Source: Methanobacteriota archaeon | Lineage (GTDB): Archaea > Halobacteriota > Methanomicrobia > Methanomicrobiales > Methanoculleaceae | NCBI GenBank assembly: GCA_030446015.1 | Contig: JASUSO010000016.1 | Coordinates: 1 to 32,330, forward strand | DNA length: 32,330 nt | Direction of reading: 5' to 3' | Shown: piece after piece, positions 7,793-31,459 of the stretch | Layout: every line of letters begins with the position of its first letter | How positions within the stretch are numbered: the stretch's first letter is position 1 | Translations under genes and position numbers: made by a program | The notes under the pieces: generated by a model | The model's input: the letters and a program-made list of their open reading frames with translations, nothing else | Databases searched by the model: none | Told to the model about the DNA's origin: nothing

Positions 7793-10294
7793 TCAGGGCT
7801 CATCCTTTCGGAAGTAGAGGAGCGCCCCCGCCCCCGCAATGATGAGGGCGAGCAAGCCCGGGATGAGGTGCGCATACGGGACCGCACGCCCGGCCGCGGG
7901 TTTTTGGCCGGTATCGGCGGCGGCCGCCTGTGCGGCGCCGTCCTCGGGTGCCGCGGCAAAGAGCGCATACGCACTGAAGTGCATGACTTCGGCCGTGACG
8001 CTCCGGGTCTCCGGGACGACGGTGGTGGGGACTTCCTCCCAGGCGCCGGCAGACCGGTTGTATCGCTGCACCACGAGCCCGCCCCGGACGCTCTCGTTGT
8101 AGACGGCGTCCCACTGCTCTTCCGTGAAGTTGAATGCAAGCGTCGCCGGCGGGGAGAATGACGCCCCCTCCGGCCCGGTGGTGCAGGCGTAACCGACGAA
8201 GACATACGTGCCGGGCGCCGCGGGCACGTCAGCCGCATCGATCACCGCAAGGGTCACTGCCGTGAGCGGGCTACCGGCGGCATCGAGAGCACGGATGCCC
8301 TCCGCGATCGTGAGGGTCACGACCCCGTCGGCCGAACGGATCCTGGCGACCTGGTCGACGAGGCCGCCCTCCCCGAGGTGCAGGCTGCCGGCGTCGGCTT
8401 CATGAGGAGTGGGCCTGGCCGTCGCGGTGGAGGTCGGCGTGGGAGCGGTCGTTGGTGTGCTCCAGCCGGGGCTTGCCGGGACGAATCCGCCGCCGCCACC
8501 TCCGCCACCACCACCGCCTCCTCCCCCTCCACCTCCGCCGCCCGCGGATGTCTGCGTCGCGGTCGGGGTGGGCGTCTGAGTCTGCGTCGGCGTTGCGTTA
8601 GCCGTTACCGTTGGGGTCACCGTCGGGGTCACGGTCGGAGTCACCGTCGGGGTCACGGTCGGAGTCACCGTCGGGGTCACGGTCGGAGTCACCGTCGGAG
8701 TCACGGTCGGAGTCACGGTCGGAGTCACCGTCGGGGTCACGGTCGGGGTTACCGTCGGAGTCACGGTCGGAGTCACGGTCGGGGTTACCGTCGGGGTTAC
8801 GATCGGGGTTACAGGATAGACGGTGATGTAGTTGTACTTCGTCTGCGTCGCGCTGACTCCCGCGTTGTCGCAGGTCAGGGAGACGTTATAGACCCCGGGG
8901 CGATCGTAGCGGTGCCGCGCATCCCGTTGCGACGACGTCGCGCCGTCGCCGAAGTCCCAGAGCCAGGCCGTCGCATAATCCGGGGAATCGCCGTAAAACA
9001 GGACTGTAAGGGGCGCCGGGCCGGACAACGGCACCGCACGGAAGTCGATGACCGGCGGCTCCGGGGGGCCTACGTGGATGAGATCGGTCTTCGTGACGGT
9101 GTCGGACCCAAACGCATTATGCACCGTGAGCGAGACGGTGTAGTCCCCGGGGATCTCGTAGAAGTGCCACGGGTCCCGTGAGGTCGAGGTGTTCCCGTCG
9201 CCGAAGTCCCATTCCCAGGCGTCCGGGTCGCCGGCCGAGAGATCGGTGAACCGGACGTAGAGCACCGCCCCTCCTTCGGTCGGGTCAGCCGAGAACTCCG
9301 CCACCGGGGCCGTTCCGCCGAAGTAGGTGAAGGCGTAGATGTCCGAACCCGGACCACGGCCGTTCTGCCAGACGACCCGGTCACCGCTGACGGCGGGATA
9401 GAGTTGTTCGGTCGCGGAAGGAGCGACCGGCATCTGGGTATCCTTCCCGAGAGCGAGGTCGCAGATGTAGACGTTCCACGTCCCGCTCCGCTTGTCCTCC
9501 CAGGCGATGAGGTCGCCGTCGATCGCCGGGGAGACCTGTGCCGTGGGGTCGTTGGTGATCCTCTGCTCTCCGGCGGCAGGGTTGTCGAGATCGAAGAGGT
9601 AGATATCAGGAGCCCCGTGCCGGTAGTCCTCCCAGACGATCCGGCTCCCCGATATCGCCGGGTAGGTCTGCCGTGCGCCGTTTTGAGTGATCCGGCGCCG
9701 CTCTCCGCTCCAGATATCGTACAGCCAGATGTCCCCGTTCCCGGTGCTCTCCTCCCAGACGACGTACCGCTCCGAAAGTGCGGGCTTCCAGTCGGTCACC
9801 GGCGAGCAGGAAAGGAAGGTCTCGCTGCCGGTCTCGATGTTGTAGAGGCAGATGTCCATGCTCCCGCCGCGGGCATCGTACCAGACCACATGCTCCCCAC
9901 AAACGACGGGCATCCGCTGCTCGGCCGGGTCGTCGGTGAGCGCCGTCGTCATGCCGGTTGAAAACTCAAAAAGACTGATATCCGGGCTCATGTTCCGGTT
10001 CTCCTCCCAGACGACGTAATCCCCCGAGACGGACGGGTACCTCTGCCCCGACCCCCCGCCCGCAACCCTCCAGCCATCGCCGCCGGAGCCGCTTGCGCAG
10101 TAGATCGATCCTCCGTTCCTGCCGTCCTCCCAGACGATCGTATCTCCGTCGATGTCAGGATGCTCCTGCGATCCTCCGACGATACAGATCGAAACGATAT
10201 CCCCCAGGGCCCTCTCCCCGGCCATGGCAGGCGATGCCAGCAATCCTATGGCAATGACGATACAGAGAACAATCAGCGCGTTATATCCAGCCAT
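7793..10294 (-). CDS. Surface protein: TolB-like repeats, two PKD domains, TPTV stalk, poly-Gly, C-terminal anchor
   Basis: An 833-residue secreted protein. A signal peptide (to about residue 24, ending SPAMA) is followed by seven repeats carrying VVWED-like motifs (IVWEDGRNG, VVWEENRN, VVWYDARG and others; residues about 30-330), a likely TolB-type propeller. Two PKD domains follow (WEWDFGDGNTSTS and WLWDFGDGATSSQ, about 332-490), then a VTPT stalk (about 496-564) and 19 consecutive glycines (585-603). A conserved-looking globular domain ends in MHFSAYALF (about 632-780), with a final membrane segment HLIPGLLALIIAGAGALLYF plus RKDEP. ATG 10294 was chosen because GGTGATCG lies just upstream and the signal peptide starts there. 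It is probably an S-layer-associated or adhesive protein; ligand unknown. Confidence 0.8.
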   Translation of the reverse strand: MAGYNALIVLCIVIAIGLLASPAMAGERALGDIVSICIVGGSQEHPDIDGDTIVWEDGRNGGSIYCASGSGGDGWRVAGGGSGQRYPSVSGDYVVWEENRNMSPDISLFEFSTGMTTALTDDPAEQRMPVVCGEHVVWYDARGGSMDICLYNIETGSETFLSCSPVTDWKPALSERYVVWEESTGNGDIWLYDIWSGERRRITQNGARQTYPAISGSRIVWEDYRHGAPDIYLFDLDNPAAGEQRITNDPTAQVSPAIDGDLIAWEDKRSGTWNVYICDLALGKDTQMPVAPSATEQLYPAVSGDRVVWQNGRGPGSDIYAFTYFGGTAPVAEFSADPTEGGAVLYVRFTDLSAGDPDAWEWDFGDGNTSTSRDPWHFYEIPGDYTVSLTVHNAFGSDTVTKTDLIHVGPPEPPVIDFRAVPLSGPAPLTVLFYGDSPDYATAWLWDFGDGATSSQRDARHRYDRPGVYNVSLTCDNAGVSATQTKYNYITVYPVTPIVTPTVTPTVTPTVTPTVTPTVTPTVTPTVTPTVTPTVTPTVTPTVTPTVTPTVTPTVTPTVTPTVTANATPTQTQTPTPTATQTSAGGGGGGGGGGGGGGGGGGGFVPASPGWSTPTTAPTPTSTATARPTPHEADAGSLHLGEGGLVDQVARIRSADGVVTLTIAEGIRALDAAGSPLTAVTLAVIDAADVPAAPGTYVFVGYACTTGPEGASFSPPATLAFNFTEEQWDAVYNESVRGGLVVQRYNRSAGAWEEVPTTVVPETRSVTAEVMHFSAYALFAAAPEDGAAQAAAADTGQKPAAGRAVPYAHLIPGLLALIIAGAGALLYFRKDEP
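8486..8542 (-). repeat. 19-codon poly-glycine tract
   Basis: Nineteen consecutive Gly codons of mixed GGN use lie within the PKD-protein gene, between the Thr/Pro stalk and the C-terminal domain. Mixed codon use argues for selection on a flexible glycine linker and not for simple triplet slippage. Confidence 0.9.
8604..8807 (-). repeat. 12-bp minisatellite encoding the VTPT stalk
   Basis: Seventeen tandem 12-bp units (consensus gtyaccgtcggr on the + strand) encode Val-Thr-Pro-Thr repeats in the PKD protein. Units differ only by a few synonymous changes. Unit number is likely to vary between strains by slippage or recombination, altering stalk length without a frameshift. Confidence 0.95.
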
Positions 10295-10393
10295 TCTTCG
10301 ATCACCACGATGAGAACGCCCCCTTCGTCCCATACGATGGTGTCTGTGCGCGCGCCGGGGAAACGGGGCTCCCCGGCAGGCGCACAAACGGAG

Positions 10394-10434
10394 ATCCTGA
10401 GGAATTCCGGAGAAACGCCGTGACTCCTCAGGAT
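10394..10434 (-). promoter_or_regulatory. 10-bp stem inverted repeat in PKD-gene leader
   Basis: The arms atcctgagga and tcctcaggat match perfectly across a 21-base spacer, about 100 bases upstream of the PKD ATG and downstream of the likely TATA box. It could be an RNA stem in the leader or a regulator site. Confidence 0.4.
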
Positions 10435-10516
10435 AAAGGGTTCGCGCGTTGCAGGATAGGATCACAAATATAAATGCATTTCTATAAATTGACAGGAGTG
10501 GAGAACGGAGGGAGCA

Positions 10517-11482: not shown

Positions 11483-12451
11483 TTAGGCCTTCCCCCGCCC
11501 GACCTCGCGGAGGACCGCCGCCCCGAACTCCCGGGTGCCCGCGGTCCCGCCGAGATCGGGTGTCCGGATGCCTGCACGGAGCACCCGGTCGACGGCCTCC
11601 TCGACGGCCGCCGCGGATGCGGGATCGCCGAGGTGGGAGAGCAGCATCGCGGCGCTCCTGATTGCCGCAATGGGGTTTGCAATGTTCCTCCCCGCGATGT
11701 CGGGAGCGCTCCCGTGGACGGGCTCAAAGAGAGCGGCACGTTCCCCGATGTTTGCGCTCGGCAGCATCCCAAGACCCCCCACCAGGTAGGCGGCGGCGTC
11801 GGAGAGGATGTCGCCGAAGATGTTGGTCGTCACGATGACGTCGTAGCGGTCGGGGTGCATCAGAAGGTCGAGGCAGAGCGCATCGATGTAACTCGTCCTG
11901 CAGGGAACGTTCGCCCGGGCGGCCTCCGCGGTGCAGACCTCGACGAAGAGGCAATCCGACTTCAAGACGTTCGCCTTGTTGCCGACGGTGAGGTGGCGGC
12001 GGGACTTCGCGAGGGTGCAGGCGTAACGGGCGATCCGCTCGCTCCCCCGGCGGGAGACGACCCGGAGGGTGCAGGCGCGATCCGGCTCCGTCCACTCGAT
12101 CCCGGAGTAGAGCCCCTCGGTGTTCTCCCGAACGATGACGACGTCGACCCCCTCGCCCCGGATAGGCCGGACGTTCGCGTAAAGGTCGAGATCACGGCGG
12201 ATCTGAACGAGGACGCTTTTGTAGCCGGGGTCGGGCGGCGTCGTGATCGCCCCAAAGAGGATCGCGTCCGCCGACCCGAGATCGGCGATCGTCTCCTCGT
12301 CGCAGGCACTCCCGGTTCGCTCCCACCGGCCGTATCCCACCTCGACGTCGAAGAACTCGATATCCGGACGCACGGCCGCAAGGATATCACGGGCGACCGG
12401 GACGACCTCGCGACCGATGCCGTCGCCCTCAACAACTGCTACCTTCACCAT
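11483..12451 (-). CDS. aksF: Homoisocitrate/isopropylmalate dehydrogenase family, probably AksF
   Basis: An NAD(P)-dependent beta-decarboxylating dehydrogenase. The 322-residue protein starts with [15 protein letters not shown] and carries [13 protein letters not shown], the catalytic Lys in [10 protein letters not shown], the Asp pair in [19 protein letters not shown] and [13 protein letters not shown]. It is complete. Family members act on isopropylmalate (LeuB) or on homoisocitrate and its longer homologues (AksF, leading to 2-oxosuberate for coenzyme B). Sequence alone does not separate them here. I favour AksF because the linked synthase is AksA/NifV-like and the small dehydratase subunit carries YLRT. 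ATG 12451 overlaps the preceding unknown gene by 23 bases, so translation is likely coupled. Confidence 0.75.
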
Positions 12452-14928: not shown

Positions 14929-16054
14929 CGACGACCCCCTCCTTTGCCGCCCGCAGGAGACTGCAGAGCACCTCGCGGGTGACGCTGCACTTCCCTTCGC
15001 TCTTCAATTTGACCTGCTCAAGCACCCACCGGACCTCGTCGTCGGATAGGTCGAACCCGTAAGCCTTCGCGACGTGCTCGAGCGCCCGCTTCCCCGTATG
15101 CTTCCCGAGGACGAAACGCCGCTCGCCGCCCACCAGTTCCGGCGGGACGTATTCGTAGGTCGCCGGATCGCAGAGGATCGCGGCGATGTGAATCCCGCTC
15201 TCGTGGGCGAAGGCGTTCTCACCGACGATCGGCCGGGTGCGCTCCGGGGTGACGCCTGAAGCCCGAGCGACCAGGCGCGAGATCTCCTGCAGGCGGGTAA
15301 GATCGTAGCGGTCGACACCGCCCTTCAGCCGCAGGAGGGCGAGCACCTGTTCGAGCGCCGCGTTTCCGGCACGCTCCCCGATGCCGTTGACGGTAGTGTG
15401 GAGCTGAAACGCTCCCGCAGCTGCGGCCGTGATGGTGTTCGCCGTCGCAAGCCCGAGGTCGTTATGGCAGTGAATGCAGAGCGGAAGCGGGGCGGCGTCG
15501 AGGAGGCGGGTGACGACCGCGTGCGTCTCAAGCGGTGTGAGGCAGCCGACGGTGTCCGCGAAACTGACGAGATTTGCGCCGCGTTCGACGCCGCGGGTAT
15601 ACATCTCGATGAGAAACGCCGGGTCGGTCCGCGAGGCGTCTTCGGCGGCGAACCGCACCTGCACGCCGTGATCGGCGGCGAACTCCACCATGTCGAGAGC
15701 GCCGTCGAGCACCTCCTCGCGGGGTTTATGGTACTTGTGCCGGATGTGGAGGTCGGAGGTCGCGAAGAATATGCTGACCATATCCACGTCGCAGTCAATC
15801 GCCGCCTCGATGTCGGGCTTGAGCGCTCGGGCGAGGCAGCAGATACGGGCGGATAGATCGGCCCGGGCAATGGCCGCGACGCACTCCTTCTCCGCCGCGG
15901 AGACCACGGGAAACCCGGCCTCGATCACCTCCACGCCGATCTCGTCGAGGAGTTGCGCAATCGCCATCTTCTCATCACGGGTAAACGAGACGCCGGGAGT
16001 CTGCTCCCCGTCTCGCAGCGTTACGTCACAGATCTCGATATGCCACGGTTTCAT
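14912..16054 (-). CDS. aksA: Homocitrate synthase family, AksA/NifV-like
   Basis: This enzyme condenses acetyl-CoA with a 2-oxoacid. AksA starts from 2-oxoglutarate and repeats the cycle to reach 2-oxosuberate, the coenzyme B side-chain precursor. The 380-residue protein has the HMGL-like barrel motif DVTLRDGEQTPGVSF (10-24), metal-binding His195/His197 in CIHCHNDLGLATAN, and TTVNGIGERAGNAALE. The segment PIVGENAFAHESGIH with FVLGKHTG matches AksA/NifV. The long C-terminal regulatory domain of LeuA or citramalate synthase is absent, against a leucine or isoleucine role. ATG 16054 has GGTGAG six bases upstream; the in-frame GTG at 16063 has none. It overlaps the thiamine enzyme gene by 29 bases. 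Confidence 0.82.
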   Translation of the reverse strand: MKPWHIEICDVTLRDGEQTPGVSFTRDEKMAIAQLLDEIGVEVIEAGFPVVSAAEKECVAAIARADLSARICCLARALKPDIEAAIDCDVDMVSIFFATSDLHIRHKYHKPREEVLDGALDMVEFAADHGVQVRFAAEDASRTDPAFLIEMYTRGVERGANLVSFADTVGCLTPLETHAVVTRLLDAAPLPLCIHCHNDLGLATANTITAAAAGAFQLHTTVNGIGERAGNAALEQVLALLRLKGGVDRYDLTRLQEISRLVARASGVTPERTRPIVGENAFAHESGIHIAAILCDPATYEYVPPELVGGERRFVLGKHTGKRALEHVAKAYGFDLSDDEVRWVLEQVKLKSEGKCSVTREVLCSLLRAAKEGVVGEHAL

Positions 16055-17285
16055 GGGTCTCACCTTCTGGGCAGGAGCCTTCGATCACCACCGTCCGGGG
16101 GCCGTCCTCGGGGGGGACGAGAACCCGGCGAAGCGCCGCGGTATCGTCTGCGACGCAGACGACCGGGTTCGCCCAGGCGATGTAGCGAAGGATCTCGGGG
16201 ACGGGGTGACCGCCGGTCATCCCCATCCGGTTGTTCGCAAAGACGATGCAGAGGAGCGGAAGGTCGCGCTCGTAGACGTCGATGAGGGCGGAGAGCCCCG
16301 AGTGCAGGAGCGCGTAGTCGCCGATGAGCGCGACGCCCGGACCGGTTGCCGCCACGGCGACCGAGGAGCCGAGACCGTAGGTGGCGATGCCGATGCGGTA
16401 GGGCGGATTCATCGCAAGGATTGCGCACCCGGCGTCGCAGACCGCCCGCAGGTTGCGCTCGCGGAGGATGGCAAGGGCCGGGTGGAACGGGCAGTTCCGG
16501 CAGAACGTCCGGGAGAAACCCCGGGTGGAGAACCGTTCCGGCTCTCCGGCGGCATCGGGAGGGGTGAGCAGCCGGTGCTCCCGGAGGAAGGGGCGGCCGG
16601 TCTCGTGGAGCGCGGCGAGCACCTCCGGGTCGGCCGGCGGCGGGTAGACGGTGACGGCACAGTGGTTGCCGCCCGAGAACCAGTTGAGGGGCGATGACCG
16701 CGACCAGGCGAACATCTCCGCCGTCCGGCGGTCGGCCATCAGTGCCCGGCCGGCCATCGTGAGATCCGGGTCGGCGAGGCTCCCCTCCCGGCGCCGTCGG
16801 GAAGCGGTGGATGGTTCGGGCACGTCCGCGTCCAGGACGGTTGGCGTGACCCTGACGATGGCGACCCGCGAGAAGGTCTCCGAGGCCTCGAACGCTGCGT
16901 CGACTGCCGGGCCGAGCGTCTCGCCGTCGGGCTCCAGCACCGGGACCCGGGCCACCTCGCCGTAGTAGCGGGAGTCCTGCACGACGTCCGAGGCCGCCGC
17001 GGCGACGTCGTCGGCGGCGACGATCACGACGCCCGACCGGAGGCCCTGGGCGGTGGCGTGCACGAGCGGGTCGGCGCAGGCGTTGAGGCCGACATGCTTG
17101 ACAAAGACGGCGGCCCTCCTCCCGGAGAGGGAGTCCCCGAGAGCGTACTCGAGCGCCGTCTTCTCGTTGATGGTGATTACGGCCCCCGCCAGGGAGGCAA
17201 CCTCCGATACCGGGTAGCCGGGGACGGCATAGCAGCGGTCCGCCGACTGCCGGATCGCCCGGGCGAGCACCTCGGCGCCCTTCAT
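16026..17285 (-). CDS. IorA-like thiamine diphosphate enzyme without ferredoxin domain; candidate 2-oxosuberate decarboxylase
   Basis: This resembles the alpha subunit of indolepyruvate:ferredoxin oxidoreductase. The N-terminal part has ITINEKTALEYALGDSLSG (candidate ThDP-activating Glu41) and VFVKHVGLNACADPLVH. The C-terminal part has CRNCPFHPALAIL, GCAILAMNPPYRIG and the ThDP-binding signature from GD at 322-323 to NN at 351-352, followed by RMGMTGGHPVPE. At 419 residues it lacks the C-terminal 2[4Fe-4S] domain of IorA, and no IorB-like gene is adjacent. That argues against ferredoxin-linked oxidation and for non-oxidative decarboxylation or carboligation. It overlaps the radical SAM gene (ATGA) and aksA. 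My inference is decarboxylation of the 2-oxosuberate made by the Aks enzymes. A sulfopyruvate-type decarboxylase is the main alternative. Confidence 0.8.
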   Translation of the reverse strand: MKGAEVLARAIRQSADRCYAVPGYPVSEVASLAGAVITINEKTALEYALGDSLSGRRAAVFVKHVGLNACADPLVHATAQGLRSGVVIVAADDVAAAASDVVQDSRYYGEVARVPVLEPDGETLGPAVDAAFEASETFSRVAIVRVTPTVLDADVPEPSTASRRRREGSLADPDLTMAGRALMADRRTAEMFAWSRSSPLNWFSGGNHCAVTVYPPPADPEVLAALHETGRPFLREHRLLTPPDAAGEPERFSTRGFSRTFCRNCPFHPALAILRERNLRAVCDAGCAILAMNPPYRIGIATYGLGSSVAVAATGPGVALIGDYALLHSGLSALIDVYERDLPLLCIVFANNRMGMTGGHPVPEILRYIAWANPVVCVADDTAALRRVLVPPEDGPRTVVIEGSCPEGETHETVAYRDL

Positions 17286-18253
17286 CCGTCCCTCCCCGGC
17301 GTGAGATCGCACCCGGTGCACGCCGCACACATCGTCAGCGCCTGGCGGGGGTCGAGCCCTGCCCGGCGAAGGATCTTCTCCTGAACCTCAAAGAGCGAGA
17401 GGAGCCGTTCGGCGGAGGGGCGGGGCATGCCCGCGAGAGACGCCGCCGGAGTGAGCGGGCGCAGAACCGGGATGACCCCATCGGCGGCGAGGTCTTCCAT
17501 CACCCGCTCCAGGTCGCCGTCGGTCTCCCCGAGGCCGACGATGACGTTCGAGTAGACCCGCCCCCGCCCAAAGAGAGCGACGGATGCCGAGAGCGACTCC
17601 CGGATTCCCTCCCACGAGAGCCCGGGGCACATCTCGCGGAAGAGTTCGGGGGTCGCCGTCTCGATGTTGAACTTCACCTCGGCGACGCCGAGAGCATGAA
17701 GCCGGGCCGGGGTATCCGGCCCCGGGTAGATCGAGACGCCGATGGGGAGACCGAACGGGCGAAGCGCCGAGACGACCTCGAGGACGTATGCCTCCTCCTC
17801 CTCGATCGAGGAGGCGACGCCGCTCGTGATCGAGATGGCATCGATCCGGTCGGCGACGCTCTCGACCATCCGGACGATCTCGTCAACCCCCTTTCGCCGG
17901 CCGGGGAGCGCCGGCACCGGGCAGTAGCGGCAGTGAAAGATGCACGTCCCGCTGACCGTGATGTAGGCCTGGCAGGGGCAGTGGAGAGCGGCGGGTTCGA
18001 GCCGGCCGGCGACGGTTTCGCCGTCGATGATGAGGTCGGCCGCGCCGTCGCCCCGGTGGACGAGCTCGATGGGGCTGTCACCATTGATGCCGGCGCGGAG
18101 ACGCCGGCCGTCGCCGGGGGAGAAGAAGAGCGAGCCGGAACTCCCTGCCGAGGGGCCGGCGGCAGAGCGGGATACGTACCCGTCCACAGGCTCGCCGGAG
18201 AGGCGGACGGATCCCGTCTCAAGCACCCGGGCTTTCAGCCGTTTCCATTCCAT
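17282..18253 (-). CDS. Radical SAM protein with extra C-terminal CxxCxxC
   Basis: A radical SAM enzyme of 323 residues and unknown substrate. The SAM-cluster motif is CxxxCxxC at C104, C108 and C111 (CIFHCRYCPV), preceded by a Cys pair (C92, C94) and followed by a barrel with ISITSGVASS (SAM-binding-like) and VKFNIETATPELF. The last 15 residues carry C309, C312 and C315 (CAACTGC), which could bind an auxiliary Fe-S cluster. The first 90 residues are a separate region of unknown fold. Sulfur-inserting radical SAM enzymes carry auxiliary clusters, but so do many others. ATG 18253 overlaps the mmp11-like gene by 19 bases, and the end overlaps the thiamine-enzyme ATG. Possible roles are a coenzyme B late step or cofactor/protein modification. 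Confidence 0.85.
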   Translation of the reverse strand: MEWKRLKARVLETGSVRLSGEPVDGYVSRSAAGPSAGSSGSLFFSPGDGRRLRAGINGDSPIELVHRGDGAADLIIDGETVAGRLEPAALHCPCQAYITVSGTCIFHCRYCPVPALPGRRKGVDEIVRMVESVADRIDAISITSGVASSIEEEEAYVLEVVSALRPFGLPIGVSIYPGPDTPARLHALGVAEVKFNIETATPELFREMCPGLSWEGIRESLSASVALFGRGRVYSNVIVGLGETDGDLERVMEDLAADGVIPVLRPLTPAASLAGMPRPSAERLLSLFEVQEKILRRAGLDPRQALTMCAACTGCDLTPGRDG

Positions 18254-19128
18254 AGCGCCAGCGCCTCCTCGTATCGGGTGTAGAACGGGATCGCCGCAAC
18301 CGCCCCGATCACGCCCCGGCCGTCCATGACGATGGAGAGGTGTTCGGAGTCAAAGGCGGCAAGGTCGTCTGCGGAGACCTCGCCCCGTTTCACACGGCAG
18401 CCGAACTCTTCGAGCGGCGAGGGGTCGAACCCCCGCCAGACCGCCATCCCGGTCTCGTCCGAGAGGGTGTACTCCTCGAGGAGATCGCGGTAGTTCCTGA
18501 TCAGCCCCTCGGGGTCGGAAGTGGCGAACTCGCAGGCGATGGCGACACAGTTCTTGGTCCGGTAGGGGACAGGATAGAGTTGAATGATGGTGTGGGAGAG
18601 GTAGCGTGAGTGGTCGTCCTCGACGGCGCGGGCGATGTTGTGCGCGAGCGTCCAGGTGGCGCCCTCCTCGGGGGTGTCGGTATCGTCGATACCGATGATC
18701 ACCCGCTCGCGGCGGGGGAGCCAGACGGTTGAGCCTGCAAGACGCCCGCCGCCGGCGGGGTCGCTCACGCAGCGGACGACGCCGCTTGCCGAGGCGCGGC
18801 AGATGGACGCCCCGACACCCCCGCCGCCGAGACCCCGGTAGGTGACGGCGATCTCGTCTTCTTCGACGGCGACGGCGGCGATCCCCGCCGGAAAGAACGA
18901 GCCCTCGAGCGCGAGGTCGGCGCTCCCGGTCGAGAGGAGGTAGCGGTTGGTCGATCCTACGGTGCGGACGGAGCGGACGAGCGGGCTCTGCGCGTAGTGC
19001 CGCTTCACCCACATCGCACCGCCGATGCAGTCGAAGAACTCGACGAGCTCCACCTGCCCGCCGCTCTCGTCGGCCACCGCCACGATCTGAGGATACCGTA
19101 TCGTATACGGACTAGAGAGTCTCTCCAT
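18235..19128 (-). CDS. GIDDTDT protein, probably methanogenesis marker protein 11
   Basis: A 297-residue protein that I assign, from remembered family features, to methanogenesis marker 11, a family found in methanogens with no proven function. It opens with ERLSSPYTIRYPQIVAVADE. VTYRGLGGGGVGASICRA lies near 96-112, and the diagnostic IIGIDDTDTPEEGATW at 134-149. The GIDDTDT motif is shared with TiaS (tRNA-Ile2 agmatinylcytidine synthetase), where it helps bind ATP/Mg, but the OB and zinc domains of TiaS are missing. It is therefore probably an ATP-using enzyme. ATG 19128 overlaps the upstream paralogue by 17 bases. The gene heads into the radical SAM, thiamine enzyme and aks genes, which is the best clue to its role. 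Confidence 0.65.
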   Translation of the reverse strand: MERLSSPYTIRYPQIVAVADESGGQVELVEFFDCIGGAMWVKRHYAQSPLVRSVRTVGSTNRYLLSTGSADLALEGSFFPAGIAAVAVEEDEIAVTYRGLGGGGVGASICRASASGVVRCVSDPAGGGRLAGSTVWLPRRERVIIGIDDTDTPEEGATWTLAHNIARAVEDDHSRYLSHTIIQLYPVPYRTKNCVAIACEFATSDPEGLIRNYRDLLEEYTLSDETGMAVWRGFDPSPLEEFGCRVKRGEVSADDLAAFDSEHLSIVMDGRGVIGAVAAIPFYTRYEEALALWNGNG

Positions 19129-20068
19129 AGAGTCCTGCCGCCTCCACGCCCTTGTTCCCCCAGAGAACGGCTCCGAGCGCTCCAATCCTGCCCTTACGCC
19201 CGTTCGAGTCGATGAACCGGACACCCATCCGCGCCGCCTCAGCCTCCGCGTCCTCGACCGTCAGGAGCTCGGTCTTGACCCGCTTCAGGTAGGGCGACTC
19301 CTCGGCAAACGCAATCCCGCGGTAGACGGCGATGCCGGTATCGTTGCTGACTGCTCCCGCTTCAATGAAGTCGCGGACGTATTCGAGGAGTTCGTCCACC
19401 TTCCCCGGGCGAACGGCGAAGTTCAGGGCGGAGCCGACGCAGTTGGTGGTCTTCTTCGGGACAGCGGGGTTCAGCTGCACGAGGCGCATGTCCAGGTACT
19501 CGACCCCCGGGATCGTGCAGCCCTCGGCGCACTTGAGCGCGAGCACCCACGTGGCGCCCTCCTCGCGGGTGTCGGTGTCGTCGATCCCGATCGTCACCTT
19601 CTCATACAGCGGCGATACGATCCGCACCCGGCAGGTCCGTGCGCCGCCGATCCTGAGATCGTCCTCGGTCGGGTACTCCGCCCGGATCACGCCCGGCGCC
19701 TGCGGGAGGCAGGCGGCGACACCGACGCCCGCCCCCGCGATCCCCGCCCAGGTCGTCACCACTTCATCGCCGACGACCTCGACACCCTCGAGCGCCTGGC
19801 CGCCGATCTCCTGGCTCGCAGCCCCGAACTTCGCGGGGGATACGCCCAGGCGGGCGAGCATCGTCATCGTCGTACCCTCGACGTGGCAGGCCTCGACCGC
19901 GCCCTTCGCCCGCACCCGGTTCGCCGCATCCCACTCGATCGTCCCCCGGGCCCGGCACTGCTCGCGGATCTCCGCAAGACCGGCATCCCGGTCGACCATG
20001 ACGAGGAACTTCATCGAGAACAACCGCCCGAACCGGGCCCTGACTTCATCGGGTGTGAGCGTAATCAT
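19112..20068 (-). CDS. GIDDTDT protein, tandem paralogue of the marker-11-like protein
   Basis: A 318-residue TiaS-like protein and first gene of the operon. It carries TIGIDDTDTREEGATWVLAL (GIDDTDT at 151-157), VTTWAGIAGAGVGVAACLP, VQLNPAVPKKTTNCVG and SNDTGIAVYRGI. Each has a counterpart at the same position in the next gene (for example SDETGMAVWRG), so the pair arose by tandem duplication. A C-terminal extension (FIDSNGRKGRIGALGAVLWG) resembles the end of its neighbour. The N-terminal 60 residues (MKFLVMVDRDAGL region) differ from it. It is too short for TiaS. ATG 20068 has GGTGA four bases upstream; a Met at residue 19 is a weaker alternative. Function unknown, probably ATP-dependent. 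Confidence 0.75.
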   Translation of the reverse strand: MITLTPDEVRARFGRLFSMKFLVMVDRDAGLAEIREQCRARGTIEWDAANRVRAKGAVEACHVEGTTMTMLARLGVSPAKFGAASQEIGGQALEGVEVVGDEVVTTWAGIAGAGVGVAACLPQAPGVIRAEYPTEDDLRIGGARTCRVRIVSPLYEKVTIGIDDTDTREEGATWVLALKCAEGCTIPGVEYLDMRLVQLNPAVPKKTTNCVGSALNFAVRPGKVDELLEYVRDFIEAGAVSNDTGIAVYRGIAFAEESPYLKRVKTELLTVEDAEAEAARMGVRFIDSNGRKGRIGALGAVLWGNKGVEAAGLYGETL

Positions 20069-22344: not shown

Positions 22345-22555
22345 AGCCTTTGGATTTGGCTCTGCACCGAAAACTGCGCAAAGCATCGAGATTTTGGGCA
22401 TCGGAGTAACATAATACCAGATCTATTTTATAATACCTGACGGATAATCATAGTTCTGAAATATAAGGCTGCCGGATTTCAGAAAGTTTATGTATATTCT
22501 TTGACAATTCTTTTTATATCGATTTTTAATCGATCGAGATCTGGTGCGTGATACC
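22345..22555 (+). promoter_or_regulatory. AT-rich upstream region of the fwd/hdr operon
   Basis: The composition drops sharply to AT-rich here. It holds an inverted repeat ctgaaat/atttcag (22456-22462 and 22476-22482) and the TATA element TTTTTATATC at 22511-22520. Immediately downstream is the palindrome ATCGAT-n5-ATCGAT at 22518-22534. A start site near 22541 would leave a 15-base leader containing GGTG before the first ATG. Confidence 0.5.
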
Positions 22556-22828
22556 ATGGCATTTGCATTGCACATCAATATGGAACGATGTACAGGCTGC
22601 AACAACTGCGTGGTGGCATGCCCGGTCGACGCTCTCGAGCTCTACACTGAAGACCCAGCAACCAAGGACAAGATCTACAAGGTCCGGGACGGCAAGGCCG
22701 TCATCCTTGACTTCAACTCAGAGCTCTGCGCCGGCTGCGGTGTATGCGTCCAGGCATGCCCCTATGGAGTCATCAAGCTTGCAGGACCGTGGGAGAGCCG
22801 GGCCAAGGCCCGAAAAGCGGAAGCCTAG
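22556..22828 (+). CDS. fwdG: Two-cluster ferredoxin, FwdG-like subunit
   Basis: A 90-residue 2[4Fe-4S] ferredoxin. The cluster motifs are CTGCNNCVVACP (near residue 15) and CAGCGVCVQACP (near 61). By size and operon position it corresponds to FwdG, which passes electrons between the polyferredoxin FwdF and the catalytic FwdB in formylmethanofuran dehydrogenase. ATG 22556 (MAFALHINMERC) was chosen over an upstream in-frame GTG at 22544, which would lie in the ribosome-binding region. The C-terminal tail is basic (ESRAKARKAEA). It is the first gene of the ten-gene fwd/hdr operon. A free ferredoxin is a less likely alternative. Confidence 0.8.
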   Translation: MAFALHINMERCTGCNNCVVACPVDALELYTEDPATKDKIYKVRDGKAVILDFNSELCAGCGVCVQACPYGVIKLAGPWESRAKARKAEA

Positions 22829-22843
22829 GAGTGATACTAGAAT

Positions 22844-24013
22844 ATGGCACTGTTTCCAAAGTATTCAAAAACGCGGGAAGGCCAGAACGTCATCATGGAG
22901 CAGAGGCTCCTGAAGGCGGTCAACAACCTGATCCTGAACGCCGAGACCTGTACGGGCTGCGGCATCTGTGTCGACGCCTGCCCTGAAGAGGCGATCGCGC
23001 TCGGACCCGTCGGTGCGACACGCCGCGGAGCCATCGACTATGCAGAGCCCATCGACGTCAACCCTGAGAAGTGTTCGTACTGTGGCGTCTGCGTCATCAT
23101 GTGCCCCTTCAACGCGTTGACACTCAAGATCGACGGCGAGGAGCGCCTCCCGATCCTTGAGCAGGAAGGATTCCCCACTTATGACATGGTCACCGTGATC
23201 GACGAAGAGAAGTGCAACCGGTGTACCATCTGCGACGACGTCTGCCCGAGAGACGCCATCAACCGCGACGTCCCCGCATTCGAAGGCGGCGACGAGGCCG
23301 GCAGGCCGCGCGAGACCGCACTGCAGACCAAGACGACGTTCACCGTCGACACCGAGAAGTGCGACGTCTGCGGCATCTGCGGCGAACTCTGTCCGAGCAT
23401 CACCGTCGCCCGCAAGCCCGCAAACCCCGAGACCGGCACGATCGAGGGGGACGTCCTGTGGGAAGAGAGCACCTGCGACGGCTGCAAGATCTGCGCCGAG
23501 GCCTGCCCCCAGGATGCAATCACCGTCGAGCGCGAGGTCATCAGCACCCGGCTGCCCGGCAAGGTCGAGATCGAGCAGGACAACTGCTGCACCTGCACAT
23601 GGTGTGTCCAGTCCTGCCCCACCGAGGCGATCACCGTCGAGAAGATCTTCGAGGGAGACATCGAGATCAACCCCGAGAAGTGCCCCGGCGGCTGCTCGAC
23701 GTGTGTCGAGGTCTGCCCCTGCAACGCACTCTACCTCCCGTCCCCTGCCCCTGCAAAGGAGATGAAGGGGCGGATTGAGCCCAACATCGCCATCAACAAG
23801 GACTTCTGTATCCTCTGCGGCGCCTGTGTCAACGCCTGCCCGAGCGAGGATGCGATCATTCTGCGGCGGACGGGCATCCGGATGCAGGATAAGGAGACTG
23901 ACCTCTTCAAGAGGATCAAGGAGAAACTGCTCGCCCCGAGGACATCGAAGGTCAAAGAGGCCGCCCCCGGAGAAGTCGAGATCAAAGTTCTGGGAGCAGC
24001 AGAAGAGGCATGA
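22844..24013 (+). CDS. fwdF: Polyferredoxin FwdF, eight [4Fe-4S] clusters
   Basis: This electron-wire subunit of formylmethanofuran dehydrogenase has 389 residues. Eight CxxCxxCxxxCP-type motifs can be counted in order: CTGCGICVDACP, CSYCGVCVIMCP, CNRCTICDDVCP, CDVCGICGELCP, CDGCKICAEACP, a CTCTWCVQSCP motif with an extra preceding Cys, CPGGCSTCVEVCP (one residue longer) and CILCGACVNACP. Eight clusters is the number in structurally known FwdF. A charged C-terminal tail of about 50 residues follows. The ribosome-binding site GGAG overlaps the fwdG stop region. Its position directly before hdrCBA suggests it joins Fwd to the heterodisulfide reductase complex. Confidence 0.9.
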   Translation: MALFPKYSKTREGQNVIMEQRLLKAVNNLILNAETCTGCGICVDACPEEAIALGPVGATRRGAIDYAEPIDVNPEKCSYCGVCVIMCPFNALTLKIDGEERLPILEQEGFPTYDMVTVIDEEKCNRCTICDDVCPRDAINRDVPAFEGGDEAGRPRETALQTKTTFTVDTEKCDVCGICGELCPSITVARKPANPETGTIEGDVLWEESTCDGCKICAEACPQDAITVEREVISTRLPGKVEIEQDNCCTCTWCVQSCPTEAITVEKIFEGDIEINPEKCPGGCSTCVEVCPCNALYLPSPAPAKEMKGRIEPNIAINKDFCILCGACVNACPSEDAIILRRTGIRMQDKETDLFKRIKEKLLAPRTSKVKEAAPGEVEIKVLGAAEEA

Positions 24014-24023
24014 GGGATAGCCA

Positions 24024-24605
24024 ATGGCAGTGAAGAAAGACTATATGGACCAGAAACTCGCCGAGAAACTTCGGGACAGGAAGTACTACGCTCCTGACAG
24101 CAACCCCGAGTTCCTCAAGGAAGTTGAGAAGATCGGGCAGACCCCCGCCCACATGTGCTACCAGTGCGGCACCTGTACCGGATCGTGCCCCTCGGCACCG
24201 CGCAGCTCGTACCGGATCCGGCTGTTCATGAGGAAAGCCGTCCTCGGTCTCGAGGAAGAAGCCCTCACCGACCCGGACCTCTGGCTCTGCACGACCTGCT
24301 ACAGCTGCACCGACCGGTGCCCCCGCGACCTCGCGCCGACCGACACGATCATGGCGATGAGGAACCTCGCATTCAGGCGCGACATCGTTCCGCGCAACTT
24401 CCTCCAGACCGTCCAGCTCATCTACAAGAGCGGTCACGGCGTCCCGAACAACGACGCAAACCGCGCGGCCCGGAAGAGGCTCGGACTCGACGAGGAGCCG
24501 GAGACGACGCACAAGTACCCCGAGTACCTGCCCGGCATCCAGAAGATCCTCGACCACTACAGACTGAAAGAGAACGCGGACAGGATTCTCGCGGAGGGTG
24601 AGTGA
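24024..24605 (+). CDS. hdrC: Heterodisulfide reductase subunit C
   Basis: HdrC is the iron-sulfur subunit that carries electrons from HdrA to the catalytic HdrB. The 193-residue soluble protein has two [4Fe-4S] motifs, CYQCGTCTGSCPSAP and CTTCYSCTDRCPRDL. Then come TDTIMAMRNLAFR and a C-terminal helix region (YPEYLPGIQKILDHYRLKEN) typical of cytosolic HdrC, not of membrane HdrE/DsrM partners. GAGGGA precedes the ATG. hdrB follows four bases after the stop, in the usual C-B order. Confidence 0.93.
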   Translation: MAVKKDYMDQKLAEKLRDRKYYAPDSNPEFLKEVEKIGQTPAHMCYQCGTCTGSCPSAPRSSYRIRLFMRKAVLGLEEEALTDPDLWLCTTCYSCTDRCPRDLAPTDTIMAMRNLAFRRDIVPRNFLQTVQLIYKSGHGVPNNDANRAARKRLGLDEEPETTHKYPEYLPGIQKILDHYRLKENADRILAEGE

Positions 24606-24609
24606 TAGC

Positions 24610-25512
24610 ATGAGCGGAAACAACCACCAGTATGCATTCTTCCTCGGGTGCATCGCTCCGAACCGGTACCCCGGCATCGAGGCGGCGGCCATCGCGACCA
24701 GCAAGAACGTCGGCATCGACCTCCTGCCCTTAAAGGGCGCAAGCTGCTGCCCGGCACCGGGTGCGTTCGGCTCGATCGACTTAAACGTCTGGTACGCAAT
24801 GGCGGCCCGGAACATCGTGCTCGCCGAGCAGATGGGCATGGACATCGCCCTGGTCTGCAACGGCTGCTACAAGTCCATCTGGGAAGTCAACCACAAACTG
24901 AAGCACAACGCTGAACTCCGCGAAGGAGTCAACGAGGTGCTCAAAGAGATCGATATGGAGTACAAGGGGACCATCGACGTCTGGCACCTCGCCGAGCTCT
25001 ACTACGACCCCGAGATCGTAGGCGTCAAGAAGCTCGCCGACAGCGTCAAGCGCCCCCTGACCGGCGCGAAGGTCGGTGTCCACTACGGCTGCCACCTGAT
25101 GAAGCCGCGCAAGGAGCGGCACTTCGGGAACACCGAGAGCCCGATGTGGATGGAAGAACTCGTCGCCGCACTCGGCGCCGAGCCGGTCCAGTACCGCAAC
25201 AAGATGCAGTGCTGCGGTGCCGGCGGCGGTGTCCGTGGATACGATATCACGCACGCGCTCGATATCACAAATGAGAAGCTGATTAACATGGAAGAAGCGG
25301 GTGTCGATGCAGTCACCGAAGTCTGTCCGTTCTGCCAGCTCCAGTTCGACCGCGGCCAGCTTGAGATCAAGGAGAAGTTCGGTGTCGAACACGGAATCCC
25401 CGTCCTGCACTTTAACGAACTCCTGGGACTGGCTCAGGGCATGAGCCCGGACGAGCTTGCACTCGACCTCCACGCCATCGATGTTGAGCCGTTCCTGAAG
25501 AAGATCCTGTGA
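24610..25512 (+). CDS. hdrB: Heterodisulfide reductase subunit B
   Basis: HdrB holds the non-cubane [4Fe-4S] clusters that reduce CoM-S-S-CoB to CoM-SH and CoB-SH. The 300-residue protein starts FFLGCIAPNRYPGIE. It shows two CCG domains: ASCCPAPGAFG with LVCNGCYKSIW, and GVHYGCHLMKPRKE, MQCCGAGGG, EVCPFCQLQFD. All cysteines expected for two non-cubane clusters appear present. ATG 24610 was chosen (GGAGGGTGAG lies just upstream); an in-frame GTG at 24598 overlaps hdrC and would sit in that site. The end overlaps the hdrA ribosome-binding site. Confidence 0.94.
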   Translation: MSGNNHQYAFFLGCIAPNRYPGIEAAAIATSKNVGIDLLPLKGASCCPAPGAFGSIDLNVWYAMAARNIVLAEQMGMDIALVCNGCYKSIWEVNHKLKHNAELREGVNEVLKEIDMEYKGTIDVWHLAELYYDPEIVGVKKLADSVKRPLTGAKVGVHYGCHLMKPRKERHFGNTESPMWMEELVAALGAEPVQYRNKMQCCGAGGGVRGYDITHALDITNEKLINMEEAGVDAVTEVCPFCQLQFDRGQLEIKEKFGVEHGIPVLHFNELLGLAQGMSPDELALDLHAIDVEPFLKKIL

Positions 25513-25523
25513 GGTGCAAAGAC

Positions 25524-27542
25524 ATGGCAGAAGTCAAGAACAAAGAGGCAAGAATTGGCGTTTTTGTATGCCACTGTGGTACCAACATCGCTGGCACCAT
25601 TGACATCGAGGCAGTAAAGGAGTACGCCAAGACAATCCCGAACGTCGTCGTTGCCGACAACTACGCGTATATGTGCTCTACCCCCGGTCAGAACAAGATT
25701 GCAGATGCCATCAAGGAGCACAACCTGACCGGAGTCGTCGTCGCAGCCTGTACGCCCCGTCTGCACGAACCCACGTTCCGTAACGCAACCGCGGCTGGCG
25801 GCTTAAACCCCTTCCGGTTCGAGATGGCAAACATCCGCGACCAGAACTCGTGGGTGCACATGCACCAGCCCGTAGAGGCAACCGAGAAAGCGAAGGACGC
25901 AGTCAGGATCGCCGTGGCAAAGGCATCCCTGCTCGAGGACCTCGTCCCGAAGAGCGTCCCCGTCGAGAAGACCGCAATGGTCGTCGGCGGTGGTGTCGGC
26001 GGTATGCAGGCAGCGCTCGACCTTGCAGACGCAGGGATCAAGACCTACCTCGTGGAGAAGAGCCCGACCATCGGCGGCAGGATGTCCCAGCTCGACAAGA
26101 CCTTCCCGACGCTGGACTGCTCGCAGTGTATCCTGACCCCGAAGATGGTGGATGTCTACCGCAACGAGAACATCGAGCTCCTCACCTACACCGAGGTCGA
26201 GGCGGTCGAGGGATACATCGGCAACTTCGACGTGACCCTCCGCAAGAAGGCACGCGGCGTCCTCACCCCGAAGGAAGCAGAAGCCCGCGGCATCGTCGGC
26301 GGCGGCTGTACCGGTTGTGGTGACTGTGCGAACGTCTGCCCGGTCATCAAGCCGAACCCGTTCGAGCTCGGCATGGCCCCGAGGAAGGCGATCTACATCT
26401 ACCACCCGCAGGTCTCCCCGCTGATCTACACCGTCGACTTCGACGCCTGCGTCAAGTGCGGTCTCTGTGTCGAGGCGTGCGGTGAGAAGAAGGCGGTCGA
26501 CCTCGAAGCGAAGGATGAGTTCATCACCGTCAAGGTCGGTACCGCCATCCTCGCTCTGGGATACGACATCTTCCCCATCGAGAAGAAGTTCGAGTTCGGC
26601 TACAAGAACTTCGACAACGTCATCACGAGCCTCGAGTTCGAGCGGCTGATCTGTGCGTCCGGACCGACCGGCGGCCACCTCGTCCGGCCGAGCGACGGCG
26701 AGACCCCGAAGCGGATCGCGTTCGTCCTCTGTGCGGGCTCCCGTGACAACACCGACACCGGCAAGCCGTACTGCTCGCGGTTCTGCTGCATGTACTCCTT
26801 GAAGCACGCTCACCAGATCATCGAGAAGATCCCCGGCGCGGTGCCCTACATCTTCTACATGGACATCCGGTCCTTTGGAAAGATGTACGAGGAGTTCTAC
26901 TACCGTATCCAGAACGAGGGTGCGAAGTTCATCCGCGGCAGGGTGGCAAACATCACCGAAGACCCGGTGACAAAGAACCTCCACGTCAACGCAGAGGACA
27001 CGCTCCTCGGCCGGCCGGTAGACCTGGAAGTCGACATGGTCGTGCTCGCGGCAGCCATCCAGCCCTCCGCCGAGACCGAGAAGACCCGCAGACTCTTCGG
27101 TGTCTCCTGCTCGCAGGACGGCTGGCTGTTAGAGGCACACCCGAAGCTGAACCCGTGCGGCACCACCACTGCCGGTGTCTACCTCGCCGGCGCCTGCCAG
27201 GGACCGAAGGATATCCCGGACACGGTCGCCCAGGCAGAGGGTGCGGCATCCGCGGCATCCATCCCGATCCACAAGGGAGAGGTGGAGCTCGAGCCCTACT
27301 TCGCCCAGTGTATCGAGGAGAAGTGCGCCGGATGCGGAATGTGTGTCTACCAGTGCCCCTACCAGGCCCTCTCACTCGTCGAGAAGAACGGACGCACGGT
27401 CATGCAGGTCACCGAGGCCAAGTGCAAGGGATGCGGCACCTGTGGCGGGTTCTGCCCCGGCGGTGCAATCTGGATGCAGCACTTCGCAAGCCCGCAGATC
27501 ATTGCGCAGATCGATGCATTCCTCCTCGGAGGTGAACAGTAA
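25524..27542 (+). CDS. hdrA: Heterodisulfide reductase subunit A, flavin electron-bifurcating
   Basis: HdrA carries the FAD that splits electron pairs between ferredoxin and HdrBC. The 672-residue protein starts RIGVFVCHCGTNIAGTID, continues with MCSTPGQ and AACTPRLHEPTF, and has a thioredoxin-reductase-like FAD site VVGGGVGGMQAALDLADAG. Two internal ferredoxin motifs follow (CTGCGDCANVCP; CVKCGLCVEACGEKKAVDL) and two at the C-terminus (CAGCGMCVYQCP; CKGCGTCGGFCPGG). A cysteine version, CCMYSLKHA, stands where some methanogens place selenocysteine; no in-frame TGA is present. ATG 25524 has GAGGTG seven bases upstream. It is immediately followed by mvhD. Confidence 0.95.
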   Translation: MAEVKNKEARIGVFVCHCGTNIAGTIDIEAVKEYAKTIPNVVVADNYAYMCSTPGQNKIADAIKEHNLTGVVVAACTPRLHEPTFRNATAAGGLNPFRFEMANIRDQNSWVHMHQPVEATEKAKDAVRIAVAKASLLEDLVPKSVPVEKTAMVVGGGVGGMQAALDLADAGIKTYLVEKSPTIGGRMSQLDKTFPTLDCSQCILTPKMVDVYRNENIELLTYTEVEAVEGYIGNFDVTLRKKARGVLTPKEAEARGIVGGGCTGCGDCANVCPVIKPNPFELGMAPRKAIYIYHPQVSPLIYTVDFDACVKCGLCVEACGEKKAVDLEAKDEFITVKVGTAILALGYDIFPIEKKFEFGYKNFDNVITSLEFERLICASGPTGGHLVRPSDGETPKRIAFVLCAGSRDNTDTGKPYCSRFCCMYSLKHAHQIIEKIPGAVPYIFYMDIRSFGKMYEEFYYRIQNEGAKFIRGRVANITEDPVTKNLHVNAEDTLLGRPVDLEVDMVVLAAAIQPSAETEKTRRLFGVSCSQDGWLLEAHPKLNPCGTTTAGVYLAGACQGPKDIPDTVAQAEGAASAASIPIHKGEVELEPYFAQCIEEKCAGCGMCVYQCPYQALSLVEKNGRTVMQVTEAKCKGCGTCGGFCPGGAIWMQHFASPQIIAQIDAFLLGGEQ

Positions 27543-27968
27543 ATGGCAGACGAGAACTGGAAACCCAAGATCATCGCCATCATCTGCAACTGGTGTTCGT
27601 ATGCCGGTGCAGACCTGGCCGGCGGCGCCCGCATTCAGTACCCGCCCGACATCCGTGCCGTCCGTGTGATGTGCACGGGCCGGGTCGACCCCCTCTTCAT
27701 CCTGAAGGCATTCCAGGACGGGGCGGACGGCGTGCTAGTCTCCGGGTGCCACTTCGGCGACTGCCACTATCTTGAGGGCAACTACAAGGCGGCCAAGAGG
27801 ATGTTCCTCTTGAAGAGTGTCCTCAAGAACATCGGTCTTGACGACAAGCGTCTCAGAATGACCTTCGTCTCTGCATCCGAGGGTGCAAAGTGGGGCATGG
27901 TCATGGAGGACGTCGTCAAGACCATCAACGAGCTCGGCCCGAGCCCGCTCAATGAACTTGCCAGGTAA
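27543..27968 (+). CDS. mvhD: MvhD/FlpD-type electron transfer subunit
   Basis: A [2Fe-2S] protein linking HdrA to its electron-donating partner, either Mvh hydrogenase or formate dehydrogenase. The 141-residue protein has the expected cysteines in IICNWCSYAGADLAGG, VRVMCTGRVDPLFI and SGCHFGDCHYLEGNY. Its ATG directly abuts the hdrA TAA, with GGAGGTGA just upstream. No mvhA/G or fdhA/B gene lies in the window, so the donor cannot be read here. In hydrogenase-poor or formate-using Methanomicrobiales the partner is often FdhAB, a family-level statement. Confidence 0.9.
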   Translation: MADENWKPKIIAIICNWCSYAGADLAGGARIQYPPDIRAVRVMCTGRVDPLFILKAFQDGADGVLVSGCHFGDCHYLEGNYKAAKRMFLLKSVLKNIGLDDKRLRMTFVSASEGAKWGMVMEDVVKTINELGPSPLNELAR

Positions 27969-27969
27969 A

Positions 27970-27992
27970 CTGGCCAAAATTTCTTTGGCCAG
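27970..27992 (+). promoter_or_regulatory. 9-bp stem hairpin between mvhD and fwdD
   Basis: ctggccaaa and tttggccag form a perfect stem with a five-base loop right after the mvhD stop. An overlapping smaller hairpin gccag/ctggc (27960-27974), whose loop contains the stop codon, shares the ctggc arm, so the two are mutually exclusive. No T-run follows, so it is not a typical terminator. It could set mRNA processing or stability between the hdr and fwd halves of the operon. Confidence 0.5.
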
Positions 27993-28025
27993 ATAAGAAA
28001 TACAACAGACAGGGGATGATTAGTA

Positions 28026-28427
28026 ATGGCAATCAGAGTGAATTTGATCACGGGTCGCACGATCCAGCAGGGGGTGTCCATGGAGGCGGGGAAGGAAAAA
28101 CCCGCCTACACCACCGCCTGCGGGATCATCGAGCTCGACCCAGCGGACTTTAAAAAACTGGGAGCATACCGCAACACGAACGTACGTGTCACGAGCGAGT
28201 ATGGCAGTGTTGTCGTCAAGGCAGTCGAGGCAACCCAGGGCCCTCACCCAGGCGTGGCATACATCCCAATGGGGCCATGGGCGAATATGGTAGTTAATCC
28301 GAATACCTACTCCACAGGCATGCCGACATTTAAAGGGACGCCTGTTGAGGTGGAAGCCGCCAAAGACGAACCCGTCCTCAGCTCACTGGAACTGGTGCGC
28401 AAGGGATGCAGGGGTGAGCTGGCATGA
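28026..28427 (+). CDS. fwdD: Formylmethanofuran dehydrogenase subunit D
   Basis: FwdD is the molybdopterin-dinucleotide-binding subunit. With FwdB it holds the W/Mo-bispterin that reduces CO2 to formate. The 133-residue protein begins MAIRVNLITGRTIQQGVSME, has the family core YRNTNVRVTSEYGSVVVKA with GVAYIPMGPWANMVV, and ends FKGTPVEVEAAKDEPVLS plus a short tail. It is full length. GGGGATGA precedes the ATG. It follows mvhD after 57 bases, the widest gap in the operon, which holds a hairpin. The TGA overlaps the fwdB ATG (ATGA). Confidence 0.93.
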   Translation: MAIRVNLITGRTIQQGVSMEAGKEKPAYTTACGIIELDPADFKKLGAYRNTNVRVTSEYGSVVVKAVEATQGPHPGVAYIPMGPWANMVVNPNTYSTGMPTFKGTPVEVEAAKDEPVLSSLELVRKGCRGELA

Positions 28428-29737: not shown

Positions 29738-29740
29738 GCG

Positions 29741-31447: not shown

Positions 31448-31459
31448 GGAGGGAGAAGG

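Follow-up and report, generated by a model that had tools for sequence, protein, structure and literature searches.

The window analysed here, 32,330 nucleotides long, is the entire contig C67 (JASUSO010000016.1) of a genome of the Methanoculleaceae (GCA_030446015.1, in the following G000; 2.1 Mb in 105 contigs). On its minus strand it carries nine genes, running from position 20068 down to 11483, each of which overlaps its neighbours by 1-29 nt. The fourth of them encodes P0001, a protein with the fold of thiamine diphosphate (ThDP) enzymes that is related to the indolepyruvate oxidoreductase IorA, and is the subject of this text as a candidate for the 2-oxosuberate decarboxylase of coenzyme B synthesis. 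The operon reads as follows.

19112..20068, minus strand: MMP11a, a second, diverged homologue of methanogenesis marker protein 11 (191.9 bits, under the cut-off)
18235..19128, minus strand: MMP11b, methanogenesis marker protein 11 with TiaS-like domains (345.6 bits, above the cut-off of 255.8)
17282..18253, minus strand: radical SAM protein (323 aa) carrying CxxxCxxC and, at the C-terminus, an invariant C-x2-C-x2-C
16026..17285, minus strand: P0001, ThDP-fold IorA-related protein, candidate 2-oxosuberate decarboxylase, 419 aa
14912..16054, minus strand: aksA, homocitrate-synthase type, 380 aa
13717..14928, minus strand: aksD, homoaconitase large subunit type, 403 aa
13247..13717, minus strand: aksE, homoaconitase small subunit type, 156 aa
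12429..13250, minus strand: DUF7714 (PF24830), 273 aa, a remote relative of XcbA
11483..12451, minus strand: aksF, homoisocitrate dehydrogenase type, 322 aa

The open reading frame (ORF) of P0001 starts with ATG, ends with TGA and has no internal stop. It shares 29 nt with aksA (ATG at 16054) and 4 nt with the radical SAM gene (stop at 17282), overlaps that had been claimed in an earlier note on this DNA. The coenzyme B operon in which that note had placed the gene was also found, with aksA, aksD, aksE and aksF among the nine overlapping genes and an order that recurs in 20 of 20 loci (see below). An internal TGA in many P0001 homologues was considered as a sign of selenocysteine and rejected: it is the gene's own final stop codon, lying within the overlap with aksA.

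Methane release in methanogens depends on coenzyme B, which their methyl-coenzyme M reductase uses; 7-oxoheptanoate is an intermediate of the route to this cofactor. In the established pathway AksADEF build 2-oxosuberate, the route passes through a semialdehyde, and two unknown proteins have been counted for coenzyme B (PMC3087415; this and the other papers marked "excerpt" are cited from parts of their text). The earlier note held that no gene is firmly assigned to the decarboxylation of 2-oxosuberate, and this agrees with the excerpts of the open-licence papers that were found, in which none is named for the decarboxylation that follows AksADEF.

Within P0001 the following parts can be told apart.

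P0001, layout: N-terminal PYR part (Glu41), short reduced middle region, C-terminal PP part (GD 322-323, N351)
P0001, putative [4Fe-4S] ligands: C262, C265, C287, C405

The PYR and PP fold spans the chain. Pfam recognized TPP_enzyme_C (6.4e-8), and the best NCBIfam match was IorA (TIGR03336) with 127.3 bits, the cut-off of 650.9 not being reached. In alignment A5, composed of P0001 and 59 of the 80 relatives listed (the best 80 of 267 in the scan of genome contigs), E41, G322, D323 and N351 are invariant in all 60 rows. The first three are identical also in 60/60 short homologues, 16/16 long homologues and 15/15 IorA sequences, and N351 is identical in all of these except one long homologue. 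The ThDP signature described earlier (Glu41, GD at 322-323) was thus borne out; of the proposed NN at 351-352 only N351 held, N352 not being among the invariant or nearly invariant columns of A5, so that NN is no fixed motif. In a tree of 13 of the 20 short sequences, 16 long sequences and 15 of 16 IorA sequences (the split L197 was left out), the P0001 type forms a clade apart from IorA with 100/100 support.

That a sulfopyruvate decarboxylase of coenzyme M synthesis or an indolepyruvate oxidoreductase came to lie near aks genes by chance would fit the common ThDP superfamily and the best NCBIfam model, but we regard it as extremely improbable. The 127 bits for IorA contrast with the 838.6 bits of a separate, true IorA encoded elsewhere in G000, the models of sulfopyruvate decarboxylase ComD/ComE (TIGR03845/TIGR03846) are not among the three NCBIfam families that match P0001 at E ≤ 0.1, and several families share the location close to aks genes. 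ComDE resembles the candidate role of P0001 in being a ThDP decarboxylase of a methanogen cofactor pathway that converts a 2-oxoacid to an aldehyde (PMC12068725, PMC12713407, excerpts). In the methanogens described (see also PMC2686161) it is, however, a different gene, namely MA3298 in Methanosarcina acetivorans (same excerpts), with genetic confirmation in Methanococcus maripaludis (PMC3787637, excerpt); G000 itself was not searched for ComDE. Because of this separate gene, and because indolepyruvate belongs to the separate IorA, sulfopyruvate and indolepyruvate are unlikely as competing substrates of P0001.

The earlier note had further stressed that P0001 lacks the ferredoxin domain of IorA and has no IorB neighbour. 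Both statements proved right: the C-terminal motif C-x2-C-x2-C-x3-C is present in 15/15 full-length IorA ORFs but in 0/60 short and 0/16 long homologues, and no IorB-like gene is found among the nine operon genes. The middle region is also shorter than in IorA. The conclusion drawn in that note, that non-oxidative decarboxylation is the natural chemistry, does not follow from the missing domain and partner by themselves, because four cysteines that align with those of IorA are retained. C262, C265, C287 and C405, which like DUF7714 and MMP11 are absent from that note, are kept in 60/60 short and in 15/16 long homologues and have counterparts in 15/15 IorA sequences. In oxoacid:ferredoxin oxidoreductases cysteines of this kind bind a [4Fe-4S] cluster adjoining ThDP; by alignment, those of P0001 probably mark the same inner site. 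The sole exception among the long homologues, L155 (genome G139, family f23), has lost all four cysteines and yet lies inside an aksADEF operon. At least there the cluster cannot be needed, which favours non-oxidative decarboxylation.

The cysteines lead to the question whether P0001 could be a minimal 2-oxosuberate:ferredoxin oxidoreductase, in which the ThDP-proximal [4Fe-4S] cluster would deliver electrons to ferredoxin and the product would be pimeloyl-CoA or pimelate, reduced in a later step. The one-to-one alignment with the IorA cysteines and their near invariance speak for such an enzyme, as does the finding that, by sequence, the longer homologues come closest among solved structures to alpha subunits of oxoacid:ferredoxin oxidoreductases. 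We nevertheless consider it unlikely, since a CoA-binding gamma domain was not found in P0001, the operon has no gene for an IorB-like partner, L155 dispenses with the cysteines, and the published route runs via a semialdehyde (PMC3087415, excerpt). Moreover, among the chains ranked by Foldseek those that match the fold over the full length are ThDP enzymes of the decarboxylase type. Chains of oxoacid:ferredoxin oxidoreductases are not among the best 50 fold matches listed, which is uninformative either way. Among solved structures the short type matches oxalyl-CoA decarboxylases best, though weakly (E 3.6e-4). Pyruvate and benzoylformate decarboxylases, acetolactate synthase and pyruvate oxidase are 13-17% identical to P0001, have chains of 519-608 residues and presumably lack the four cysteines.

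The order MMP11b-rSAM-P0001-aksA-aksD-aksE-DUF7714-aksF (rSAM for the radical SAM gene) was found in 20 of the 20 loci fetched first, all from Methanomicrobiales and belonging to six families. It is rearranged in genus g15, where DUF7714 is inverted and aksF directly follows aksE (L165, L221, L226, L227), and in G149, where MMP11b is separated from the radical SAM gene by other ORFs (L180). In G265 and G267 solely P0001 and the aks genes are together in the fetched stretch (L223, L225). The earlier note had considered that homologues might lie next to aks genes only in this lineage. This is not the case: in 5 of 18 loci of the long type (L143-L160) aks genes adjoin the homologue or lie near it, and these loci come from four other families (f14, L153 and L154; f7, L159; f27, L157; f23, L155). 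A further long-type case linked to aks genes is L182 of f27. MMP11 adjoins the long homologue in 11 of the 18 loci, which are all those read from f8 and f21.

The radical SAM gene adjoins P0001 in all 20 Methanomicrobiales loci, and in G260 (L161, 6089-8248) both proteins lie in a single frame of 719 aa, which may be a true fusion, though a one-base change or a sequencing error would give it as well. This could mean that P0001 acts at another step of coenzyme B synthesis, e.g. as partner of the radical SAM protein or in sulfur insertion, an idea that we hold to be improbable. In the loci read from f8 and f21 the radical SAM gene is apart from P0001 and belongs to a different clade, and the losses of P0001 coincide with those of the aks genes but not in every case with those of the radical SAM gene (kept in G141 and G202) or DUF7714 (kept in five genomes). 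Long open frames as fusions of the two proteins were looked for in eight loci, none of which has an ORF with both; L161 is the only case, and L219 of the same genus lacks it. In G143 the match of the P0001 profile is split, and a 632-aa ORF is found there.

P0001 is present in 128 of 135 Methanomicrobiales genomes and missing in seven, one of which (G263, L185) is not counted as a loss, its contig ending at aksA. In G141 and G202 (L163, L164) MMP11a, MMP11b, the radical SAM gene and DUF7714 are kept in order, and P0001, aksA, aksD, aksE and aksF are cleanly gone. Three more genomes (L186-L188) have retained less: MMP11a, a 100-aa ORF with a weak radical SAM match (23.7 bits) and DUF7714 in G271, MMP11a and DUF7714 in G285, and DUF7714 and nfo in the stretch read of G270. 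In G298 no AksD-type protein, operon AksA-type protein, DUF7714, radical SAM protein or P0001 was found, and loss and assembly gap are indistinguishable.

Whole-genome searches revealed no AksD-type protein in the six P0001-less genomes that are not cut at a contig end; they gave LeuC-like matches of 41-45% identity and nothing in G285, as compared with 63-68% in intact genomes. An operon AksA-type protein was likewise absent from the six. One 58% match in G141 (C13) was considered as a surviving aksA, which is unlikely: it lies beside nifH/nifD-like genes, and G160 has such a gene as well in addition to the full operon. Its NCBIfam scores (LEU1_arch 414, nifV 358 bits, both under cut-off) are not decisive. 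For aksE and aksF the evidence of loss comes from the fetched loci only. On the DUF7714 tree (22 of 26 loci; one double from G035 and three without the gene in the stretch were left out) the losses appear as three changes, at least two of them forced by well-supported branches, and on the nfo tree (16 loci, to be read with a warning of long branches) as two changes.

P0001 thus disappeared with the chain-elongation genes, before or independently of the radical SAM gene, MMP11 and DUF7714, which indicates a function on the AksADEF side, probably in making or first processing 2-oxosuberate. This co-loss is the strongest support for a role in coenzyme B synthesis. What the AksADEF side still requires is a step that removes CO2, as ThDP enzymes classically do, and P0001 is the one ThDP protein of the operon, which points to decarboxylation. 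We therefore propose, at a probability of about 0.72, that P0001 would decarboxylate 2-oxosuberate non-oxidatively in coenzyme B synthesis. The enzyme would be a dimer with the active sites between the PYR and PP domains. ThDP would be activated by Glu41, the ylide would attack 2-oxosuberate, with which the AksADEF steps end, at its keto carbon, CO2 would be released, and protonation of the enamine would set free the aldehyde, 7-oxoheptanoate. The four-cysteine site in the PP part would most likely be a structural or vestigial [4Fe-4S] cluster, left from an ancestral oxidoreductase from which the ferredoxin domain and the CoA-binding partner had disappeared. With the gene at hand the decarboxylation step becomes directly testable in vitro.

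One may go further and envisage an IorA-like enzyme stripped of its electron-transfer parts as a decarboxylase devoted to coenzyme B in class II methanogens, which in complex with the radical SAM protein and/or DUF7714, and by means of the retained [4Fe-4S] cluster, would pass the C7 enamine or aldehyde to sulfur insertion without free 7-oxoheptanoate. To this extension we give little credence.

The distribution was determined in 245 genomes of the phylum, each at least 90% complete. P0001 type was taken as E ≤ 1e-60 with A1 or more than about 490 bits with the A4 profile (limits set by us), and mcrA as E ≤ 1e-50; with A4 the long homologues score 496-740 bits and IorA about 330-370 bits among the matches listed. 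The P0001 type was found in 120 genomes, DUF7714 in 120 and both in 117. mcrA is present in 138 genomes, of which 113 carry P0001; conversely, 113 of the 120 P0001 carriers have mcrA. Absence from most coenzyme B makers, which the earlier note had also considered, is therefore not what is seen. If mcrA marks a user of coenzyme B, the 113/138 of this one phylum fall short of presence in all coenzyme B makers.

Several findings weigh against 2-oxosuberate decarboxylation by P0001. The near invariance of the IorA-like cysteines would be odd for a plain decarboxylase. By score, 25 of the 138 mcrA-positive genomes are without P0001: 12 of f10, five of genus g31 (f9), two of f12, one of f15, two of f18, one of f28 (G195, where two weaker matches occur), G141 and G202. 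P0001 can therefore not be the sole solution to this step. Seven carriers are without a mcrA match, four of them Methanomicrobiales (G000, G147, G160, G257), the others being G139, G150 and G226. Two of the 18 long-type loci have neither aks genes nor MMP11 nearby (L156 of f24, L158 of f28). Among the best 80 of 267 relatives listed none is titled as from a class I methanogen, the genome search covering one phylum, and the companion gene DUF7714 was not found in Methanocaldococcus jannaschii in the control search. Finally, the counts of co-occurrence come from related genomes, which are not independent events, and are uncorrected for ancestry. The role suggested in the earlier note is partly supported: it fits the operon, the distribution and the co-loss with aks genes, and the recurrence with aks genes in several families is in line with it; the 25 genomes without P0001 count against it.

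Some of the exceptions may have simple reasons. G000, which is 90% complete, gave no mcrA match at the limit used; presumably the gene is on a missing contig. The homologues of G150 and G226 may not belong to the P0001 type, because no aks gene lies alongside in the stretch read and that of G150 is closest to IorA in the tree.

G139 is of a different kind. It has an aksADEF-P0001 operon and, at the thresholds used, no match for mcrA, DUF7714, MMP11 or the radical SAM protein, as would be expected if AksADEF and the ThDP enzyme made a C7 unit for another use, e.g. pimelate for biotin. It is the only such genome (1.9 Mb, 120 contigs, 98% complete), mcrA may be on a missing contig, and 113 of 120 carriers do have mcrA; a purpose other than coenzyme B is thus very unlikely.

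From the losses it is predicted that G141, G202, G270, G271 and G285 are auxotrophs for coenzyme B or a C7 precursor, i.e. methanogens relying on others for it. Table 1 of PMC10658910 gives Methanomicrobium mobile as an organism in need of coenzyme B, although the review says in its text that this organism's growth factor is still of unknown nature (excerpt).

As a speculation, class I methanogens could use for the step a protein of the MJ0663 group (arCOG02000). This group comprises ThDP-binding proteins of about 506 aa and of unknown function, present in 15 of 15 Methanococci (PMC5311999, excerpt). It is probably a family different from P0001, because a TPP_enzyme_M domain is described for its centre and its identity to acetolactate synthase is given as ~30%.

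As to the other genes of the operon, DUF7714 is a neighbour of aksE and/or aksF in the majority of loci read, f28 excepted, and has seven cysteines that are invariant across 15 sequences. With the XcbA family (NF052538) it scores 43.3 bits in the window and 76.6 in L159, the cut-off of 150 not being reached. Among the controls it was found in Methanosarcina acetivorans and not in the other 13. Since it is retained where the aks genes, P0001 and the radical SAM gene are gone (L186-L188), it may serve elsewhere than as the thiol-forming enzyme of coenzyme B, a role for which it was considered. For M. acetivorans MMP16 has been described as the primary coenzyme M synthase, and L-ASST/MMP16 has been suggested for coenzyme B (PMC12068725, excerpt).

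The radical SAM protein of the operon resembles variant_rSAM, MSMEG_0568 and LipS2, all far under cut-off. Its presence in 120 of 120 DUF7714 carriers and in five other genomes was considered as a link between the two, which is weakened by the finding that operon and solo radical SAM proteins form separate clades. A second copy in G000 (C23, L189) groups with the solo proteins of other families, and so these radical SAM proteins fall into two paralogous clades.

MMP11 was found in both control methanogens, M. acetivorans and M. jannaschii. Its TiaS-like domains would suit, speculatively, an ATP-dependent amide-forming or phosphorylating step. Of the two tandem MMP11 genes in the window, MMP11a is still there in two reduced operons from which MMP11b is gone (L187, L188).

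Outside the operon the window contains, judged from the ORF translations, a long minus-strand ORF (7793-10465), perhaps for a surface protein, that shows a repeat of threonine, proline and valine as well as a poly-glycine run, and a plus-strand cluster (22544-32266) of ferredoxin-, heterodisulfide reductase- and formylmethanofuran dehydrogenase-like genes.

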